Below are positions 38,079 through 53,628 of a stretch of DNA of 64,000 bases, one piece after another (position 1 is the stretch's first letter; every line of letters begins with the position of its first letter). The DNA lies in assembly GCF_015709515.1 (NCBI RefSeq), contig NZ_JADNQZ010000057.1, positions 62,001 to 126,000 on the forward strand, read 5' to 3'. The notes beneath the pieces are model-generated. The model was given only the letters and a program-made list of their open reading frames with translations. It ran no database searches and was not told the DNA's origin. Source of the DNA: Methylocystis sp. H62 (GTDB lineage Bacteria; Pseudomonadota; Alphaproteobacteria; Rhizobiales; Beijerinckiaceae). Made by a program: the position numbers and the translations under genes.

Positions 38079-38690
38079 TCATGCGCCTGCTCCCTTAAGC
38101 CTCGCCTGCGCCTCAGCCACCGCCGCCGCCGGACCGCGCGCGTCGTTCCAGACGGCGTCGTCGAGCCGCACGAAGTCGGCGCCCGCCTGAACCAGCGGCG
38201 CGACATCATCGAGCGATTCCGCGCGAGCGACGCAGGGCGTGTTGAAAAGCTCCGCCCACCAGGCGACGCGCTCAATGAGCGCTTCGCGGTCAAGATCGGA
38301 AAACATCACATAGTCGGCGCTCAACTCGCCCGCGCGCATGGCGTCGTCGCGCGTCTCGATATCTCCGGCGCCGACGATGTAGCGCGGCGACATTTTCTTG
38401 ATGGCGTCGGCGAGCGCTTCGCCGCTGCCGGCGACATGGACGCCGTCGGCGCCGGCGCGCAGCGCGACATTGGGCGCCGCCTGGACAAGGACCGCGACGC
38501 CTTTATCCTGCGCGGCGGGCGCCAGAGCGCGCACGATCGCTTCCTGGCCGCGCTCGTCGGCATCGGCGAAACGAAGGAGCAGGCTCGCGACGTCGCCAGC
38601 CGCAAGCGCCTCATTGAGCGCAGGCGCAAAAGCCGCTGCGTCGGCGAGCGGCGGGGTCGCGAGGTAGAGTCGTGCCGAAATATCGCTCAT
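38079..38690 (-). CDS. Degenerate ThiE/TenI-like protein
   Basis: A 203-residue TIM-barrel protein of the thiamine phosphate synthase family, overlapping the argH stop. Family shape is kept ([47 protein letters not shown]), but the catalytic QxRxK is LLRFADAD, the N-D pair is missing and the phosphate-binding GG loop is absent. A true ThiE lies at 49556. A TenI-like or regulatory role is more likely than thiamine phosphate synthesis. Confidence 0.7.
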
Positions 38691-40072
38691 TTGTCCTTCA
38701 ATCTGTCGAGCCAGACTTGCGCGGCGCCGCGCACATTGTCGGGCGCCGTGCCGCCGAAGCTCCTGCGGCTTTGCACCGACTTCTCGACGCCGAGCACGTC
38801 GCAAACATCGGCGTTGATGCGCGGTTCGACGCTCCGCATCTCCTCGAGCGTCAAATCCTCAAGACCCACGCCGCGCGCTTCGGCGAGCGCGACGATGCGG
38901 CCGGTGACGTGGTGCGCTTCGCGAAACGGAAGCGACAGCGCCCGCACCAGCCAGTCAGCAAGGTCGGTCGCGGTCGCATAGCCCGCGCCGGCCGCGGTCT
39001 TCATCCGCGCCCGGTCGACGCGCATGTCGCGGACCATGCCGGCGATGGCGGCGATGCAGAGCGACAAGGTGTCGAGCGCGTCGAAGGCGCCTTCCTTATC
39101 CTCCTGCATGTCCTTCGAATAGGCGAGCGGCAGGCCCTTCATGACGACGAGCAGCGCGACAAGCGCGCCGATGACGCGGCCCGACTTGCCGCGCGCCAGT
39201 TCGGCGGCGTCGGGATTGCGCTTTTGCGGCATGATCGACGAGCCGGTGGTGAATTTATCGGACAGCGCGATGAAGCCGAATTGCGGCGTCGACCACAGCA
39301 CGATCTCTTCGGCGAAGCGCGACAGATGCGTCGCGCAGATCGCCGCCGCGCTCAGCGTCTCCAGAACGAAGTCGCGATCGGAGACGCTGTCCAGCGAATT
39401 CGCCGTCGGCCGATCGAACCCGAGCGCGCGCGCCGTCATCGCGCGGTCGATCGGAAAGCTCGTCCCGGCGAGCGCGGCGGCGCCGAGCGGACATTCGTTG
39501 AGCCGCGCGCGCGCGTCGCGAAGACGTCCGCGATCACGGGCGATCATTTCGACATAGGCGAGGAGATGGTGGCCGAGCGTCACCGGCTGCGCCGATTGCA
39601 GATGCGTGAAGCCGGGCATGACGCTCGCCGCCTCTTCCCGCGCGCGCGTCGCCAGCGCCAGCTGCAGATCGGCGAGTTCGACATCGAGCGCGTCGATCTG
39701 ATCGCGGATGTAGAGGCGGAAATCGGTCGCCACCTGGTCGTTGCGCGAACGCGCCGTGTGCAGGCGCCCCGCCGCCGGACCGATCAACTCGGCAAGGCGC
39801 GACTCGACGTTCATGTGAATGTCTTCGAGCGCGCGCGAGAAATCGAAGCGCTCGTTCTCGATTTCCGCTTTGACCCGCTCCAATCCATCGGCGATCTTCG
39901 CCGCGTCGTCGCGCGACACGATCCCCGTTTCGCCGAGCATGGCGACATGGGCGAGCGAGCCGCGGACGTCCTGCAGGCCGAGGCGCTTATCGAAGTCGAT
40001 CGAGACATTGATCGCCTCCAGAACCGCGTCGGTTGCGCTTTTGAAGCGCCCGCCCCATATCTTGCTCGTCAT
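38687..40072 (-). CDS. argH: Argininosuccinate lyase
   Basis: A 461-residue enzyme for the last step of arginine synthesis. The signature loop [12 protein letters not shown] contains the catalytic Ser and flexible loop, and [14 protein letters not shown] and [22 protein letters not shown] [16 protein letters not shown] are present. Its stop overlaps the ThiE-like gene. The divergent tlpA start is only 24 bp away, so the promoters must overlap. Confidence 0.97.
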
Positions 40073-46646: not shown

Positions 46647-47243
46647 TTACTTGGTCACGCCCCAATCTTCGAAACTCGGGTCGCGCTTGGCTTTTTCGAG
46701 ATTGTCCGCCTGTTCCGACAATTGATAATTTTGGTTTTGCGCCGCCATGGCCTCGGCGCCATCCTTCATAATCGCGATCTTCATCTGCTCTGTGGCGAGT
46801 CGATTGAGCTCGTTGATCCACTGATTGAGCGCGAGCAGCAAATTGCGTTTGCGCGCTTGTTGAATGTCATGCGACGAATCATTGTTCTCCGACAGCGCGA
46901 GTTCTTCTTGAGTTTCGGCGGTCATCGCATCGAGCTTCTTGACCTTCTCCTCCGCCGCGGCGACCTTGTCCGGAGCGTCGACCTTGGCTTTTTCGAGCGC
47001 CGCTTCGGCTTCAGTGCGCGCCTTCTTGAGATTGTCGAGGCCGTTCCGCAGCCATTTCGACTGAATCTTCAGGAGCGAGTCGCGCGGAACCCCGCTGAGG
47101 CTCAGCGAATTCGGAATGGGAAAATATTCGCCAAGCTGCGCCGCGTCAGCCGGCGCCGCTGAAATCGCGCAGGCAAGCAGGCCACAGAGAACGGCGCCGG
47201 CCAACGTCCTGCGGACGCTAGCCGCTTTGCTGATGAATCTCAT
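46647..47243 (-). CDS. Exported coiled-coil protein of unknown function
   Basis: A 198-residue protein with a signal peptide (basic RR, then LAGAVLCGLLACAISAAPADA) and a helical region containing LKKARTEAEAALEKAKVDAPDKVAAAEEKVKKLDAMT, a coiled coil. The middle is Asn/Gln-rich. No recognised family. The 87-bp gap to GST and the 198-bp gap to the riboswitch show no further gene. Confidence 0.6.
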   Translation of the reverse strand: MRFISKAASVRRTLAGAVLCGLLACAISAAPADAAQLGEYFPIPNSLSLSGVPRDSLLKIQSKWLRNGLDNLKKARTEAEAALEKAKVDAPDKVAAAEEKVKKLDAMTAETQEELALSENNDSSHDIQQARKRNLLLALNQWINELNRLATEQMKIAIMKDGAEAMAAQNQNYQLSEQADNLEKAKRDPSFEDWGVTK

Positions 47244-47441
47244 GATTTTCTCCCGGTATGCTGCGCTTTTTTAGCGCGCTTTTCTTTGCGCAAACTGAGC
47301 CATCGGTTGACGTCTGGCAAGTCAGGGCGCCAAGTCCCGGCGCCTGCGGGCGAATAAAGGAGCCGGGCGCAGCGCTTGACTGCCTCAGCGCTTCGCGCCA
47401 GCCTATGTCCGCCGGGGGAGCCCGCCCGGCGGCGCTCCAAC

Positions 47442-47545
47442 GACGCCGCCACGGGGCTGAGAGGCCGCAAGACGCGCGAGAACGCGGGGGCGGCGACCCT
47501 TCGAACCTGATCCAGTTGAGACTGGCGGAGGGATGGTGTCAGCGA
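47442..47545 (+). ncRNA. TPP riboswitch
   Basis: The P3/J core CTGAGAG (47457-47463) and the second sensor arm ACCCTTCGAACCTGATCCAG with GGAGGGATGGTG at the end match the THI element. The switch lies 22 bp before thiO. No obvious intrinsic terminator follows, so control is probably of translation. It senses thiamine diphosphate for the thi genes after it. The rest of 47244-47567 holds no gene. Confidence 0.92.
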
Positions 47546-47567
47546 GATTTCCCAAAAGACGGCGCTC

Positions 47568-48626
47568 ATGCTCGCGCGCGTGATCGGCGCCGGCGTCGCC
47601 GGACTCTGCGCCGCCTATGCGCTCGCCAGGAAGGGCGTGGACGTGGAGATCGTCGAGCGCGAGTCTGCGCCGGGCCTCGGCTGCTCGCGTTTCGCCGGCG
47701 GCATGATCGCGCCCTGGTGCGAACTGGAAAGCGCCGAGCCTCTGGTCGCCACGCTCGGCGAAGAAGCGCTCGACTTCTGGTCGCGCGAGCTCGGCGTCGC
47801 GACGGTCGCCGGCAGTCTTGTCGTGGCGCCCACCCGCGAGCGCGCCGAACTCGCCGACTTCGCCCGGCGCACGCGCAATTTCGAATCTCTGGACGCGAAG
47901 GCCATCGCGGCGCTCGAACCAGATCTTGCCGGGCGCTTCGACGCGGCCTTGTTTTTTCGGCAAGAAGCGCATCTCGATCCCCGCGCGGCGCTCATCGCGC
48001 TGACCGAGCGCCTCGCGCAAACGCCGAATGTGACGCTGCATTTTCAGCAGGACGCCGCCGGACGGGCGACGATCCCGGATTGGATAATCGACTGCCGCGG
48101 CTTTGCGGCGCGCGACGCGCTTCCCGGCCTGCGCGGCGTCAAGGGCGAAATGCTGATTTTGCGCAGCGACGAGATTTCCCTGGCGCGTCCGGTGCGCATG
48201 CTGCATCCGCGCCGGCCGGTTTATGTCGTTCCGCGCGGCGAGGGGCTGTTCATGGTCGGCGCGACGATGATCGAGAATGAGGAGCGCGCGCGGGTCACCG
48301 CGCGGTCGGTCGTCGAACTCGTCAACTCCGCCTTTGCGGTCCACCCGGCCTTCGCCGAGGCCGAAATTGTCGAAACCGGCTCGGACCTCCGTCCTGCCTT
48401 CGCCGACAATCTGCCACGTCTTTTGAAGCGGGGTCGCACACTCTATATCAATGGGCTCTACCGCCACGGGTTCCTGCTTGCGCCGGCGCTGGCGCGCCGC
48501 GCGGCTGAGGTCGTTGTCAACGACGGGCATTTCCCAGAGGTGATGGATGCTGATTCAGATCAACGGGCGGCCGCAGGATGTGAGCGCGACGACGTTGCAA
48601 CTGCTGCTGGACGAACTGGGGTATGA
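47568..48626 (+). CDS. thiO: Glycine oxidase ThiO
   Basis: A 352-residue FAD enzyme that turns glycine into iminoglycine for thiazole synthesis. The dinucleotide motif is [16 protein letters not shown], with YINGLYRHGFLLAPALA at the C-terminus as in ThiO. The last ~27 residues overlap thiS by 80 bp in another frame and look non-conserved (from VMDADSDQ). First gene after the TPP riboswitch. Confidence 0.88.
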   Translation: MLARVIGAGVAGLCAAYALARKGVDVEIVERESAPGLGCSRFAGGMIAPWCELESAEPLVATLGEEALDFWSRELGVATVAGSLVVAPTRERAELADFARRTRNFESLDAKAIAALEPDLAGRFDAALFFRQEAHLDPRAALIALTERLAQTPNVTLHFQQDAAGRATIPDWIIDCRGFAARDALPGLRGVKGEMLILRSDEISLARPVRMLHPRRPVYVVPRGEGLFMVGATMIENEERARVTARSVVELVNSAFAVHPAFAEAEIVETGSDLRPAFADNLPRLLKRGRTLYINGLYRHGFLLAPALARRAAEVVVNDGHFPEVMDADSDQRAAAGCERDDVATAAGRTGV

Positions 48627-48744
48627 TGAGAAGACCGTCGGCACCGCTTTGAACCAGGAATTCGTGCGCGCCAGGGACCGCGCCGAGACGCGGCTTCGTG
48701 AAGGCGACGCCGTCGAGATCGTGACGCCGAGACAGGGCGGGTGA
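48547..48744 (+). CDS. thiS: Sulfur carrier protein ThiS
   Basis: A 65-residue ubiquitin-like protein ending in the Gly-Gly needed for thiocarboxylation (TPRQGG). ATTLQLLLDELGYDEKTVGTALN and GDAVEIVTPRQ are typical. It starts inside the 3' end of thiO (80-bp overlap) and ends 13 bp before thiG. ThiS delivers sulfur to ThiG. Confidence 0.92.
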   Translation: MLIQINGRPQDVSATTLQLLLDELGYDEKTVGTALNQEFVRARDRAETRLREGDAVEIVTPRQGG

Positions 48745-48757
48745 GCGAGTGTGACGC

Positions 48758-49546
48758 ATGAATGACCCGGTGAGGCTTTACGACGGCGCGCTGTCCTCGC
48801 GGCTGCTGCTCGGAACGGCGCGCTATCCGTCGCCGGCCATTCTCGCCGAGGCCATTCGCGCGTCGGGCTGCGAGATCGTCACCGTCTCGTTGCGTCGCGA
48901 GGCTGGCGGGGCGCGCGCGGGCGAGGCCTTCTGGAGCCTCATCCGCGACGTCGGCGCGCGCGTGCTTCCCAACACCGCCGGCTGTCGCACCGCCAAGGAG
49001 GCGATCGCGACCGCGCAAATGGCGCGGGAAGTCTTTGCGACTGACTGGATCAAACTGGAAGTGATCGGGGAAGAGGACACGCTACAGCCTGACGTCTTCG
49101 GGCTCGTCGAGGCGGCGCGGGCGCTCGCGGACGAGGGCTTCAAGGTCTTCCCCTACACGACCGACGATCTCGTCGTGGCGGAAAAGCTGCTCGACGCCGG
49201 CTGCCGCGTGCTGATGCCCTGGGCGGCGCCCATCGGCTCCGGGCGCGGGGTCAACGACGCTTTCGCCTTGCGGGCGCTGCGCGCGCATTTTCCCGACACG
49301 CCCCTCGTCGTCGACGCGGGGCTTGGCGCGCCGTCCCACGCCGCGCTGGTGATGGAGATGGGCTATGACGCCGTGCTGCTCAACACCGCCGTTTCCCGCG
49401 CCGGCGATCCGGTCTTGATGGCGCGGGCCTTCGCCCTCGCCATCGAAGCCGGCCGCGCCGGTTTTCGCGCGCAGCCGATGACGCCGCGCGACATGGCGGA
49501 GCCTTCGACGCCCCTCATCGGCCGTCCCTTCGACAGACTGGCGTAG
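48758..49546 (+). CDS. thiG: Thiazole synthase ThiG
   Basis: A 262-residue TIM-barrel enzyme that makes the thiazole phosphate from DXP, iminoglycine and ThiS sulfur. [24 protein letters not shown] (Lys forming the DXP imine), [14 protein letters not shown] and [30 protein letters not shown] are all present. It needs DXP from Dxs, also in this window. Confidence 0.95.
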
Positions 49547-49555
49547 GAATAGCTG

Positions 49556-50926
49556 GTGGCGGCGCTGAGGCTCGATCCCTTCTATCTCATCGTCGACGAC
49601 GCCGATTGGCTTTCCCGCCTGCTGCCGCAGGGCGTTAAGCTCGTGCAGCTGCGGGTGAAGGATCGCGCCGAGCCCGACGCGCGCGCGCAGATCGCGACCG
49701 CGCGGGAAATGTGCGCGCGACATGGCGCGCAGCTCGTCGTCAACGATTATTGGCGGCTTGCGATCGAGGAAGGCTGCGATTTCGTCCATCTCGGACAGGG
49801 CGATCTGGACGCGGCGGACATCCCGGCGCTGCGCCGCGCCGGCGTCAGGATCGGCGTTTCGACGCATGACCAAGCCGAGCTTGACCGGGCGCTGTCGCTT
49901 AGCGCGGATTATGTCGCGCTGGGGCCGATCTATCCTACGCTGCTGAAACAAATGGCTTTTGCGCCGCAGGGCCTCGCCCGGCTAGGCGCATGGAAGGCGC
50001 AGATCGGCGAGACGCCTCTTGTCGCCATCGGCGGACTGACCCCGGAACGCGCCATCGCCGCGCTCGCCGCGGGGGCGGACAGCGCCTGCGTCGTCACCGA
50101 CATTTTGCGCAGCGCTGAACCAGAGGCGCGCGCGCGGGAATGGCTCTCCGCGACGCAGCCCTGGCGCGACGGCGAGGGCTTTTTCGCGCCCGACTACGAC
50201 GGCGCGCGCGTGTGTCCATCGCCCAATCATGGCGCGCGGCTGCGGCCGATCTCGTCGCTGGTGCTTCATTACACTGGGATGCCGACGGCGGAATCGGCGC
50301 TCGCCCTGCTCTGCAATCCGCGCTCGGAGGTCTCTGCGCATTATGTCGTCAACGAAGATGGCGGCGTGCTGCAGCTCGTGCCGGAGTCGCGGCGCGCCTG
50401 GCATGCCGGGATAAGCTTCTGGGCTGGCGAGACCGACATGAACTCCGCCTCGATCGGAATCGAAATCGTTCATCCCGGCCACGACGACCCGCGTCCCTAT
50501 CCGGCGGCGCAAATCGAGGCGACGGCCGCGCTCGCCAGGGACATGTGCCGGCGCCATGCGATACCGCCCGAACGCGTTCTGGCGCATTCCGACATCGCGC
50601 CTGGCCGCAAGCGGGACCCCGGCGAGTTCTTTCCCTGGGAGGAACTCGCCCGCCTCGGCGTCGGGCGGGTCGCCGATGAGAATCTCGGCGCTGGCGCGAC
50701 GACGATCTCGCTCGGCGACGCGAGCGCCAAGGTCGCCTCGCTCCAGCGCGACCTCGCAGCCTACGGCTATCGCGTCGAGCAAACCGGCGTCTATGACGCG
50801 CAGACGGTCCAGGCGGTCGAGGCGTTCCAGCGCCACTTCCGCCCCGCGAACGTCGATGGCCGGGCCGACGGCGAAACGCGCGTGGCGCTCGCGAACCTCC
50901 TCGCGACATTGGGAGAACGCGTATGA
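49556..50926 (+). CDS. Fusion: thiamine-phosphate synthase ThiE + N-acetylmuramoyl-L-alanine amidase (AmpD fold) + PG-binding domain
   Basis: A 456-residue uninterrupted protein. Residues 1-205 are a complete ThiE barrel: QLRVK (31-35), N63-D64, HLGQGD, GPIYPTLLKQM and IGGLT. Residues about 207-375 form an amidase_2 domain with zinc ligands H238 (VLHYT), H344 and D354 (AHSDIAPGRKRDPGE) and catalytic E303. Residues about 385-450 are a PG_binding_1 domain (GVYDAQTVQAVEAFQRHF). Start is GTG. No internal ATG with a ribosome site precedes the amidase. It is 9 bp after thiG and overlaps the SDR gene by 4 bp. Confidence 0.88.
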   Translation: MAALRLDPFYLIVDDADWLSRLLPQGVKLVQLRVKDRAEPDARAQIATAREMCARHGAQLVVNDYWRLAIEEGCDFVHLGQGDLDAADIPALRRAGVRIGVSTHDQAELDRALSLSADYVALGPIYPTLLKQMAFAPQGLARLGAWKAQIGETPLVAIGGLTPERAIAALAAGADSACVVTDILRSAEPEARAREWLSATQPWRDGEGFFAPDYDGARVCPSPNHGARLRPISSLVLHYTGMPTAESALALLCNPRSEVSAHYVVNEDGGVLQLVPESRRAWHAGISFWAGETDMNSASIGIEIVHPGHDDPRPYPAAQIEATAALARDMCRRHAIPPERVLAHSDIAPGRKRDPGEFFPWEELARLGVGRVADENLGAGATTISLGDASAKVASLQRDLAAYGYRVEQTGVYDAQTVQAVEAFQRHFRPANVDGRADGETRVALANLLATLGERV

Positions 50927-51774
50927 AGGCCGTGGTCGTGACCGGCGCCTCGACCGGCATCGGCGCGGCCTGCGTCGATTTATTGGTCGAGAACGGGTTT
51001 CTGGTTTTCGCCTCAGTTCGCAAGGACTCTGACGCGGCCACGCTCACGGCGCGGCACGGCGCGTCCGTCATTCCGCTCCTCTTCGACGTGACCGACGCCC
51101 AATCCATCGCGGCCGCCGCGCGCGACGTCGAGACCCGGCTCGATGGCGAAACGCTCGCCGGGCTGGTCAACAACGCCGGCGTCGCCGTCCCTGGCCCGCT
51201 GCTGCATCTGCCGATCGACGACTTTCGGCGCCAGATGGACGTCAATCTGATCGGCCAGCTTCGAATCATCCAGGCCTTCGCGCCCCTGCTCGGCGCTGGC
51301 GCGCAGCGGCGCGGCGCGCCCGGCCGCATCGTCAATATGAGTTCGGTCGCCGGTCGCTTCGCCGCGCCTTATCTCGGCGCCTACGCCGCCTCGAAATTCG
51401 GGTTAGAGGGCATGTCGGACGCGCTGCGCCGCGAGCTGATGGTCTATGGCGTCGACGTCGTCCTGATCGAGCCGGGAATGATCGCCACGCCGATCTGGGA
51501 CAAGGCCGAAGCGACTGATCTCGCGATGTTCGAGGGCACTGCCTATGCCGGTCCAGGCCGGAGGATGCTCAAATGGCTTGTCGAGGCAGGCCGCCGCGCG
51601 CCCGGTCCCGAGGTCGTCGCCAGCGCCGTGTTGCGGGCGCTGACGGCGCCGCGCCCGCCCCTCCGCATCCCGGTCGTAAAAAATCGCTTTACGGACTACA
51701 CGCTACGCAGCCTATTGCCGGGGCGGTTCGTCGACTGGCTGACGGCGCGCCGGCTCGGCCTGCTGCCGAAATAG
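50923..51774 (+). CDS. Short-chain dehydrogenase/reductase
   Basis: A 283-residue SDR with the classical NAD motif VVTGASTGIGAACVDLLV, NNAGV, and the catalytic YAASKFG with Ser in NMSSVAGR. The C-terminus (RLGLLPK) extends ~30 residues beyond a minimal SDR. Start ATG overlaps the stop of the ThiE-amidase gene (ATGA), so it is translationally coupled to it. Substrate unknown. Confidence 0.9.
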   Translation: MKAVVVTGASTGIGAACVDLLVENGFLVFASVRKDSDAATLTARHGASVIPLLFDVTDAQSIAAAARDVETRLDGETLAGLVNNAGVAVPGPLLHLPIDDFRRQMDVNLIGQLRIIQAFAPLLGAGAQRRGAPGRIVNMSSVAGRFAAPYLGAYAASKFGLEGMSDALRRELMVYGVDVVLIEPGMIATPIWDKAEATDLAMFEGTAYAGPGRRMLKWLVEAGRRAPGPEVVASAVLRALTAPRPPLRIPVVKNRFTDYTLRSLLPGRFVDWLTARRLGLLPK

Positions 51775-52329: not shown

Positions 52330-53628
52330 ATGAACGAAGCCGCATCAGAGACCCGTCTGCCCGACCCGGTCGCCGCCGAACCGGCGCCCCGCCACCGCAC
52401 ATGCGCCGTGGCTGTTGGCGCGGGCCCCGGCGCGGTGATCGTCGGCGGCGGCGCGCCGGTCGTCGTTCAGTCGATGACCAACACCGATACGGCGGACGTC
52501 GAAGCGACCGTCACGCAGGTTCTGGCGCTGGCGCAGCAGGGCTCGGAGCTGGTGCGCATCACCGTCGATCGCGACGAGGCGGCGGCCGCCGTGCCGCATA
52601 TTTTCGAGAAGCTCGCGCAGAAGGGATGCCACGTCCCGCTGGTCGGCGATTTCCACTACATCGGCCACAAGCTGCTCGCCGATCATCCCGCCTGCGGCGA
52701 GGCGCTCGCCAAATACCGCATCAATCCGGGCAATGTCGGCTTCAAGGAAAAGAAGGACAAGCAGTTCGCCTCGATCGTCGAACTTGCCGCCAAGCACGGC
52801 AAGGCGGTGCGGATCGGCGCCAATTGGGGCTCGCTCGACCAGGAGCTGCTCACCTATCTGATGGACGTCAACGCCGCTTCCGACAGGCCGCTCGACGCCC
52901 GCGCCGTGATGCGCGAGGCGCTGACCCGTTCGGCGCTGATGTCGGCGAAGCGCGCCGAGGAGATCGGCCTCGCGAAGGACCGCATCGTCATTTCGGCGAA
53001 GGTCTCGGCGGTGCAGGATCTCATCGCCTGCTACCGGATGCTCGCGCAGCGCAGCGACTATGCGTTGCATCTCGGCCTCACCGAGGCCGGCATGGGCTCG
53101 AAAGGCGTCGTCGCCTCCTCGGCCGCGCTCGGCGTGCTGCTGCAGGACGGCATCGGCGATACGATCCGCGTGTCGCTGACGCCCGAGCCCGGCGGCGACC
53201 GCGCGCTCGAAGTGCGCGTCGCCCAGGAAATTCTGCAGACCATGGGCTTTCGCACCTTCGTGCCGCTCGTCGCGGCCTGCCCGGGCTGCGGGCGCACCAC
53301 CTCGACGGTGTTTCAGGAACTCGCGCGCGACATCCAGGCGCATATCCGCGAGCGGATGGCGGCCTGGCGCGCGCAATATCCGGGCGTCGAGACGCTCAAT
53401 GTGGCGGTGATGGGCTGTATCGTGAACGGTCCCGGCGAGTCGAAACACGCCGACATCGGCATTTCGCTGCCCGGAACGGGGGAGACTCCGTCCGCGCCGG
53501 TCTTCATCGATGGCAAGAAGGCGATGACTTTGCGCGGCGAAGGCATCGCCGAGGAATTCACCCGCATCGTCGATGATTACATCGTGCGCCGCTTTGGCGG
53601 CGGCGCGAAGGGCGAAGCGGCGGAGTAG
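52330..53628 (+). CDS. ispG: 4-hydroxy-3-methylbut-2-enyl-diphosphate synthase (flavodoxin)
   Basis: A 432-residue [4Fe-4S] enzyme of the MEP isoprenoid pathway. [18 protein letters not shown] opens the barrel, and the cluster ligands are in AACPGCGRT and [11 protein letters not shown]. It has the longer Alphaproteobacteria form with an insertion between domains. It would use the flavodoxin type of electron donor (one lies at 35249). Start ATG at 52330; Ala/Pro-rich leader. Confidence 0.96.

Follow-up and report, generated by a model that had tools for sequence, protein, structure and literature searches.

A thiamine-phosphate synthase joined to an AmiR-like amidase in one gene of the Methylocystis thi operon

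We find that the gene at 49556..50926 of the window (the whole 64,000-nucleotide stretch of Methylocystis DNA that was analysed) is, to judge by its orthologues, a genuine and conserved two-enzyme gene made of ordinary parts: what appear to be a complete thiamine-phosphate synthase and a complete AmpD-type amidase are encoded in one frame. The same two-domain order, sought in other genomes as an earlier, sequence-only reading of this DNA had advised, is intact in 33 of the 39 genomes of the genus, and all 33 frames are open. It is probable that the gene makes one cytosolic bifunctional protein, ThiE-AmiR, with the amidase made together with the thi enzymes. Each half is ordinary and it is the combination that is unusual, a predicted recycling amidase that sits within a thi operon, with a TPP-riboswitch match upstream; no description of a ThiE-amidase fusion was found in the open-licence PMC listings. 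The gene would represent a natural, genus-level case in which a step of wall recycling shares one protein with a vitamin enzyme and lies behind an RNA that putatively senses a metabolite. The features of the window on which the argument draws are as follows.

47404..47551, + strand: TPP riboswitch aptamer match (RF00059, 49.7 bits, E 9.4e-9, whole model)
47568..48626, + strand: thiO-like glycine oxidase gene (PF01266, 166.5 bits; TIGR02352, 233.9 bits, below the cut-off of 250.8)
48547..48744, + strand: probable thiS (65 aa, C-terminal GG; overlaps thiO at the 3' end of the latter; identified from its size, place and GG)
48758..49546, + strand: thiG (PF05690, 336.4 bits)
49556..50926, + strand: thiE::amiR fusion gene (456 aa; GTG start at 49556, TGA at 50924-50926)
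49598..50104, + strand: TMP-TENI domain, the ThiE barrel (residues 15-183; Pfam 159.7 bits, 6e-47)
50144..50203, + strand: junction (residues 197-216), comprising the ThiE C-terminal tail, a short linker and the amidase N-terminal tail
50243..50626, + strand: Amidase_2 domain (residues 230-357; Pfam 137.1 bits, 6e-40), with H238, E303, H344, K352 and D354
50726..50890, + strand: PG_binding_1 domain (PF01471; residues 391-445; Pfam 54.7 bits, 1e-14)
50923..51774, + strand: SDR gene, overlapping the stop of the fusion (ATGA at 50923)
52330..53628, + strand: ispG (NF001540, 450 bits)

Domains and active sites of the two halves

The sequence-only reading had described a single unbroken frame that carries ThiE, amidase and PG_binding_1 domains, and the open reading frame and Pfam analyses agree: there are no internal stops in 49556..50926, all three Pfam domains score above cut-off, and an AGGA motif (49545-49548, read by eye) lies 5' of the GTG start. 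The catalytic residues that it had named in the ThiE half (Q31, R33, K35, N63 and D64) and in the amidase half (H238, E303, H344 and D354) are all at the positions given, and to the latter we add K352. Each of these residues is invariant in 33/33 fused orthologues, as are all 15 of the active-site positions that we checked (ten in the ThiE half and five in the amidase half). The predicted structure of the fusion has a pLDDT of 83.4 and a pTM of 0.75, with parts of the amidase core at 54-61; its list of structure matches is headed by thiamin phosphate synthases, with AmpDh2 and AmiD lower down.

The ThiE half exceeds the cut-offs of two NCBIfam models (NF000734, 319.3 bits vs 252; TIGR00693, 151.7 vs 145.1), and its nearest PDB sequences are bacterial thiamin phosphate synthases, among which it was aligned to 1g4t. 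It shares its fold, its catalytic residues and its position after thiG with standard ThiE (NF000734, TIGR00693; B. subtilis TPS, 2tps/1g4t), from which it differs by the C-terminal amidase. The other ThiE fusions that the searches named carry either a Nudix domain (NF006530) or another thiamine enzyme (ThiE/ThiD, NF007070; yeast THI6, 3nl2). There is one further TMP-TENI match in the window genome (window 38079-38804, minus strand), which reads LLLRFAD where the fusion reads QLRVKD (by eye) and attains 121.7 of the 218 bits of its own NCBIfam model: its product is probably a degenerate ThiE/TenI paralogue without Q-x-R-x-K. Because this second match lacks the motif and falls below the cut-off, the fusion would be the sole canonical synthase found in the genome. 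By eye, the gene at 38079-38804 adjoins an argH-like gene.

For the amidase half, the nearest PDB sequences are AmpDh2, AmiD and AmpDh3, followed by AmpD. We call it AmiR-like, and not AmpD proper, because its score against the model for the latter (NF008758) is 108.4 bits and does not reach the cut-off of 143. E. coli AmiD and P. aeruginosa AmpDh2 are exported envelope proteins. They are also the closest solved structures by sequence (2bh7, 4bj4) and share the domain order of the amidase half, with the difference that the fusion's amidase is preceded by ThiE and has no export signal that we could see by eye. An exported, AmiD-type enzyme is unlikely: ThiE comes first, and the stand-alone amidases of unfused Methylocystis leave a signal peptide no room.

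A different comparison is offered by AmiR of Caulobacter crescentus, which excerpts of PMC13046382 describe as an AmpD homologue with Amidase_2 and PG_binding_1 domains that cleaves anhydromuropeptides, not sacculi, and whose loss causes anhMurNAc-peptides to pile up in the cytoplasm. The amidase half shares this two-domain layout, as given in those excerpts, and the AmpD-type zinc residues; the Methylocystis counterpart differs in that ThiE precedes it in one frame and that its gene belongs to a thi operon. By this analogy we infer that the amidase half may have the role of AmiR, namely cytoplasmic recycling of anhydromuropeptides.

Beside the AmiR-like amidase, the window genome has glycoside hydrolase 3 and AnmK genes. 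Across the genus, matches to glycoside hydrolase 3, the family to which NagZ belongs, are present in 37/39 genomes, though not every match is a NagZ, and AnmK is present in 38/39. Matches to the AmpG model (TIGR00901) were obtained in 9/39 genomes, all of clade B (the clades are defined below): six are over the cut-off, and the remainder are two fragments (G025, G037) and one copy with an in-frame stop (G002). The window genome has no AmpG (TIGR00901) match; the same search matches 5/14 control genomes, Caulobacter among them. The small number of matches in the genus is consistent with the absence of AmpG from many Rhizobiales that is reported in excerpts of PMC9790009, according to which Agrobacterium imports muropeptides through YejBEF-YepA.

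Junction, distribution and origin of the fusion

Loci at which thiE is unfused or split are instructive with regard to the junction. In 11 of 14 such loci the protein stops 4-15 residues past the AT of a '..W..AT' motif (for example ATADRRG, ATAEWRR, ATALLR, ATAVWRAGEPR and ATEEWRR); of the three exceptions, one is a Methylosinus frame that continues further (L027), one is truncated where its contig ends (L125) and one is the split copy of G016 (L117). The stand-alone amidases of unfused Methylocystis have an ATG or GTG start two codons before the equivalent of F210 in 4/4 cases (L119, L121, L123, L124). Because these ThiE ends and amidase starts flank the junction, we conclude from the alignment that the fusion is two complete proteins joined end to end by a few residues. 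The junction motif T.PWR is present in 32/33 fused proteins (PCR replaces it in L086), and an in-frame indel of three residues at the junction defines two clades, A (16 fused genomes, that of the window included) and B (17 fused genomes). Within clade A the junction (residues 197-216) has a pairwise dN/dS of 0.17, and within clade B one of 0.24; the three domains give 0.10-0.17, and a variable stretch (366-388) gives 0.45-0.52. All of these are point estimates with no error bars attached, and in clade B dS exceeds 1.

Six of the 39 genomes are without an intact fusion (G006, G016, G024, G028, G033, G034). In four of them (G006, G024, G033, G034) ThiE and the amidase are two genes at different loci, which in G024 are about 490 kb apart; in G016, a MAG (locus L117/L021), a deletion of 37 nt in the junction splits the gene; in G028 neither of the halves was matched at high identity. 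At L117 5526-5570 of G016 the deletion shifts the amidase frame, and an ATG there could restart the amidase with an overlap. Outside the genus, there is no fused frame among the matches listed for 152 family genomes of other genera (159 were sampled, seven of them Methylocystis): the matches listed are to ThiE or amidase alone, two of them (G217, G219) aligning through stops, and eight genomes have no match at E <= 1e-60, in a listing that stops short of the weakest matches. Near full-length matches occur in 17 named records (L005-L021), 12 of them titled Methylocystis and five of them MAGs titled to a higher rank. Among the 120 matches listed from the protein database, those with both domains and a named organism are all Methylocystis, in a search that scored the 7998 candidates sharing most words and could miss a remote, independent fusion. 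In what was sampled, the predicted fusion is limited to the genus.

Its neighbours are constant: in 19/19 of the fused loci examined (of 33) the order is thiO-thiG-thiE::amidase-SDR, with one common DUF gene on the opposite strand upstream of thiO, and ispG is within reach downstream in four of the 19. Near unfused thiE, in 14 loci (two from one genome), neither this DUF gene nor the amidase was found. Of the six stand-alone amidase loci compared, four (L119, L121, L023 and L025; not L123 or L124) have this SDR gene after the amidase, and three have ispG near it; ten further loci with stand-alone amidases lie outside this comparison. Two observations on flanks may be added: in the unfused strain KS32 (G033; L121 4079-8909) the stand-alone amidase comes directly after trpD-trpC-moaC-moeA-like genes, and the fused locus has a GAPDH-ZapA flank.

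A tree was built from the rpoB genes of 26 genomes (17 of the 33 fused, two of the four unfused Methylocystis, three Methylosinus and four others). It groups the 17 fused genomes with SH-aLRT/bootstrap values of 99.7/96 for codon positions 1+2 and 98.6/99 for all positions; it keeps the fused MAG G007, whose rpoB contains a stop and whose branch is long. The unfused G006 and G024 lie outside the fused group. The sequence-only reading had looked to relatives in the same genus with two distinct genes as evidence against the fusion: such relatives do exist (the four genomes above), but their two genes are at different loci, and both of those tested fall outside the fused rpoB clade.

The trees of the individual domains stand against a single origin. 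On the ThiE tree and on the amidase tree alike the fused label must change three times (one change comes from the split G016 copy being scored as not fused), and neither tree unites clades A and B: clade A is placed with unfused Methylocystis in the ThiE tree (93/91), and the two clades are apart in the amidase tree. Nevertheless, because both clades share flanks on both sides of the fusion, and because rpoB unites the members tested, we read the data as one fusion event; two independent fusions, which we considered from the domain trees, are judged less likely on the same two grounds. We hypothesize from gene order and rpoB that a single rearrangement in the ancestor of most Methylocystis made a thiOSGE operon and an amidase-SDR-ispG locus direct neighbours, the operon coming first, and that the stop of thiE and the start of the amidase gene would then have been lost. 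The unfused relatives would provide a before-and-after view of a fusion born from genome rearrangement, the joined state of which has been retained across two diverged clades.

The thi operon and a possible link to wall recycling

As the sequence-only reading had placed it, the gene follows thiG in a thi operon, after thiO and the probable thiS. The supposition that the operon has a TPP riboswitch stands in part: there is a TPP match on the fusion's contig and strand, 2.0-3.2 kb upstream, in 31/33 fused genomes, but only three of these 31 pass the Rfam cut-off. The window copy, 16 nt before thiO, is below the gathering score of 54.3; it has the RF00059 core motifs (CUGAGA and ACCCUUCGAACCUGAUC...GGCG.AGGGA) and differs from the family by long insertions in two stems as well as by its sub-threshold score. 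Being below that score, it was not listed when the window was scanned with Rfam defaults, and it emerged from a search of the genome and from a permissive scan; such a scan of seven fused loci gave a TPP match in six. Two TPP matches are present in each of the 39/39 genomes of the genus, the second being on another contig in the fused G010 and G011. The copy at the thi operon is over the cut-off in 6/39 genomes, namely the fused G008, G035 and G036, the split G016, and the unfused G024 and G033. No TPP match lies within 100 kb, on the same contig, of the stand-alone amidases of G006, G024, G033 and G034. Folding of the leader RNA is no more stable than that of shuffles (z 0.11), which argues neither for nor against an expression platform. 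The second TPP riboswitch of the window genome has a higher score (G000:C52 123602-123695, minus strand; 68.4 bits).

Since in nearly all fused genomes the match shares contig and strand with the fusion and lies upstream of it, it is structurally plausible that the amidase rides on thi regulation. Judging by what is known of the two families, the ThiE half would make thiamine phosphate by joining its pyrimidine and thiazole moieties, and the amidase half would cut the peptide stem off imported (anhydro)muropeptides. Catalytic channelling need not be involved: the effect of the fusion would more likely be regulatory and stoichiometric, in that the level of the amidase would follow that of the thi enzymes and drop at high TPP. 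We put forward only tentatively, as a rather doubtful extension of this argument, that the fusion's amidase is under the TPP riboswitch and that thiamine sufficiency turns down peptidoglycan recycling in fused Methylocystis. This thiamine-to-recycling reading would apply above all to the 18 of 33 fused genomes in which the fusion is the sole Amidase_2 match (13 of these 18 are at least 97% complete). It predicts an effect of thiamine on muropeptide recycling that is testable by simple feeding: if it is true, anhydromuropeptides would accumulate at thiamine sufficiency, with changes in wall growth and beta-lactam tolerance, and a regulatory link from a vitamin to the cell wall would have arisen from one gene fusion.

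In the other 15 of the 33, among them the window genome, one or more further Amidase_2 matches occur. That of the window genome (G000:C55 137888-138364, L136; about 207-251 aa) is 36% identical to the amidase half over 185 aa, and has no room for PG_binding_1. A second Amidase_2 match, not necessarily one and the same gene, is present in 14 of the 16 clade A genomes.

Additional promoters are also to be considered. A scan of 47240-51000 found no sigma-70-like promoter, with 0.3 expected by chance; other promoter types are missed by such a scan. In two loci there is a gene between thiG and the fusion, on the same strand in L010 (2930-3955) and on the opposite strand in L017 (2826-3938; phage tail-sheath-like, by eye). 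At the remaining clade B loci that were examined, thiG and thiE are about 55-130 nt apart, or 400 nt in L140, and these clade B gaps could hold a separate promoter.

With these observations in hand, it is quite possible, if somewhat short of an even chance, that the fusion is neutral, having been fixed by chance, with domains that act independently and an amidase to which thiamine status is irrelevant (through a leaky riboswitch or promoters near thiE). The clean end-to-end joining of complete proteins favours such an origin, as do the genes inserted in L010 and L017, the clade B gaps and the second Amidase_2 match in nearly half of the fused genomes. On the other hand, the frame is intact in all 33 fused genomes, the junction is constrained and G016 is the one split relative; the lack of a sigma-70-like promoter in 47240-51000 also speaks against neutrality, as weak evidence given the promoter types that scans miss.

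At the opposite pole, the fusion could have been kept by selection, either because the dose of amidase should track thi output or because the enzymes gain when joined. This is an unlikely explanation. It would account for the genomes in which no other Amidase_2 match is found, for the conserved linkage to the riboswitch match and for the near-invariant PWR motif at the junction; against it, we know of no metabolic link between thiamine-phosphate synthesis and the amidase reaction.

Sequence evidence for a probable single polypeptide

Our preferred reading is a single ThiE-AmiR polypeptide. The statement of the sequence-only reading that the junction has neither an in-frame ATG nor a ribosome site is upheld: the first in-frame GTG at the junction of the window copy is codon 219 (50210-50212), and a motif scan found no Shine-Dalgarno-like motif before it. 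Codon 219 is GTG in the window and in three other copies, and ATG in one more (5/33 orthologues). Across codons 196-235, an in-frame ATG, GTG or TTG occurs in at most 5/33 orthologues at any position; the first common in-frame starts are GTG 236 (24/33) and ATG 242 (32/33), both of them within the amidase fold. The combination of a Shine-Dalgarno-like motif and a start between residues 190 and 236 is encountered only twice in the 33 genomes (L101, L111), and in different places. A separate start for the amidase, which the earlier reading had held out as a point on which the fusion might fail, is rejected as a conserved feature: no in-frame start before codon 236 is conserved, and the two Shine-Dalgarno-like cases do not share a position.

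We consider it very improbable that the polypeptide is cut in the junction, or that a minor internal start yields extra free amidase. The occasional start at codon 219 and the motif-start pairs of L101 and L111 would be compatible with this, but no start before 236 is conserved, the junction is maintained at the protein level, and a start at 219 or 236 would drop residues that stand-alone Methylocystis amidases retain. An assembly or frameshift artefact, the remaining hazard foreseen by the sequence-only reading, has a precedent of sorts in the junction deletion that separates the frames of the G016 MAG, and for the window it is refuted by the intact frame of 33 independent orthologous genomes, the single-contig assembly G021 among them.

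The database names of the predicted ThiE-AmiR protein are 'thiamine phosphate synthase', 'thiamine-phosphate pyrophosphorylase' or 'N-acetylmuramoyl-L-alanine amidase'; because sources thus label it by either half, anyone who looks by name for the recycling amidase in these methanotrophs may overlook it.
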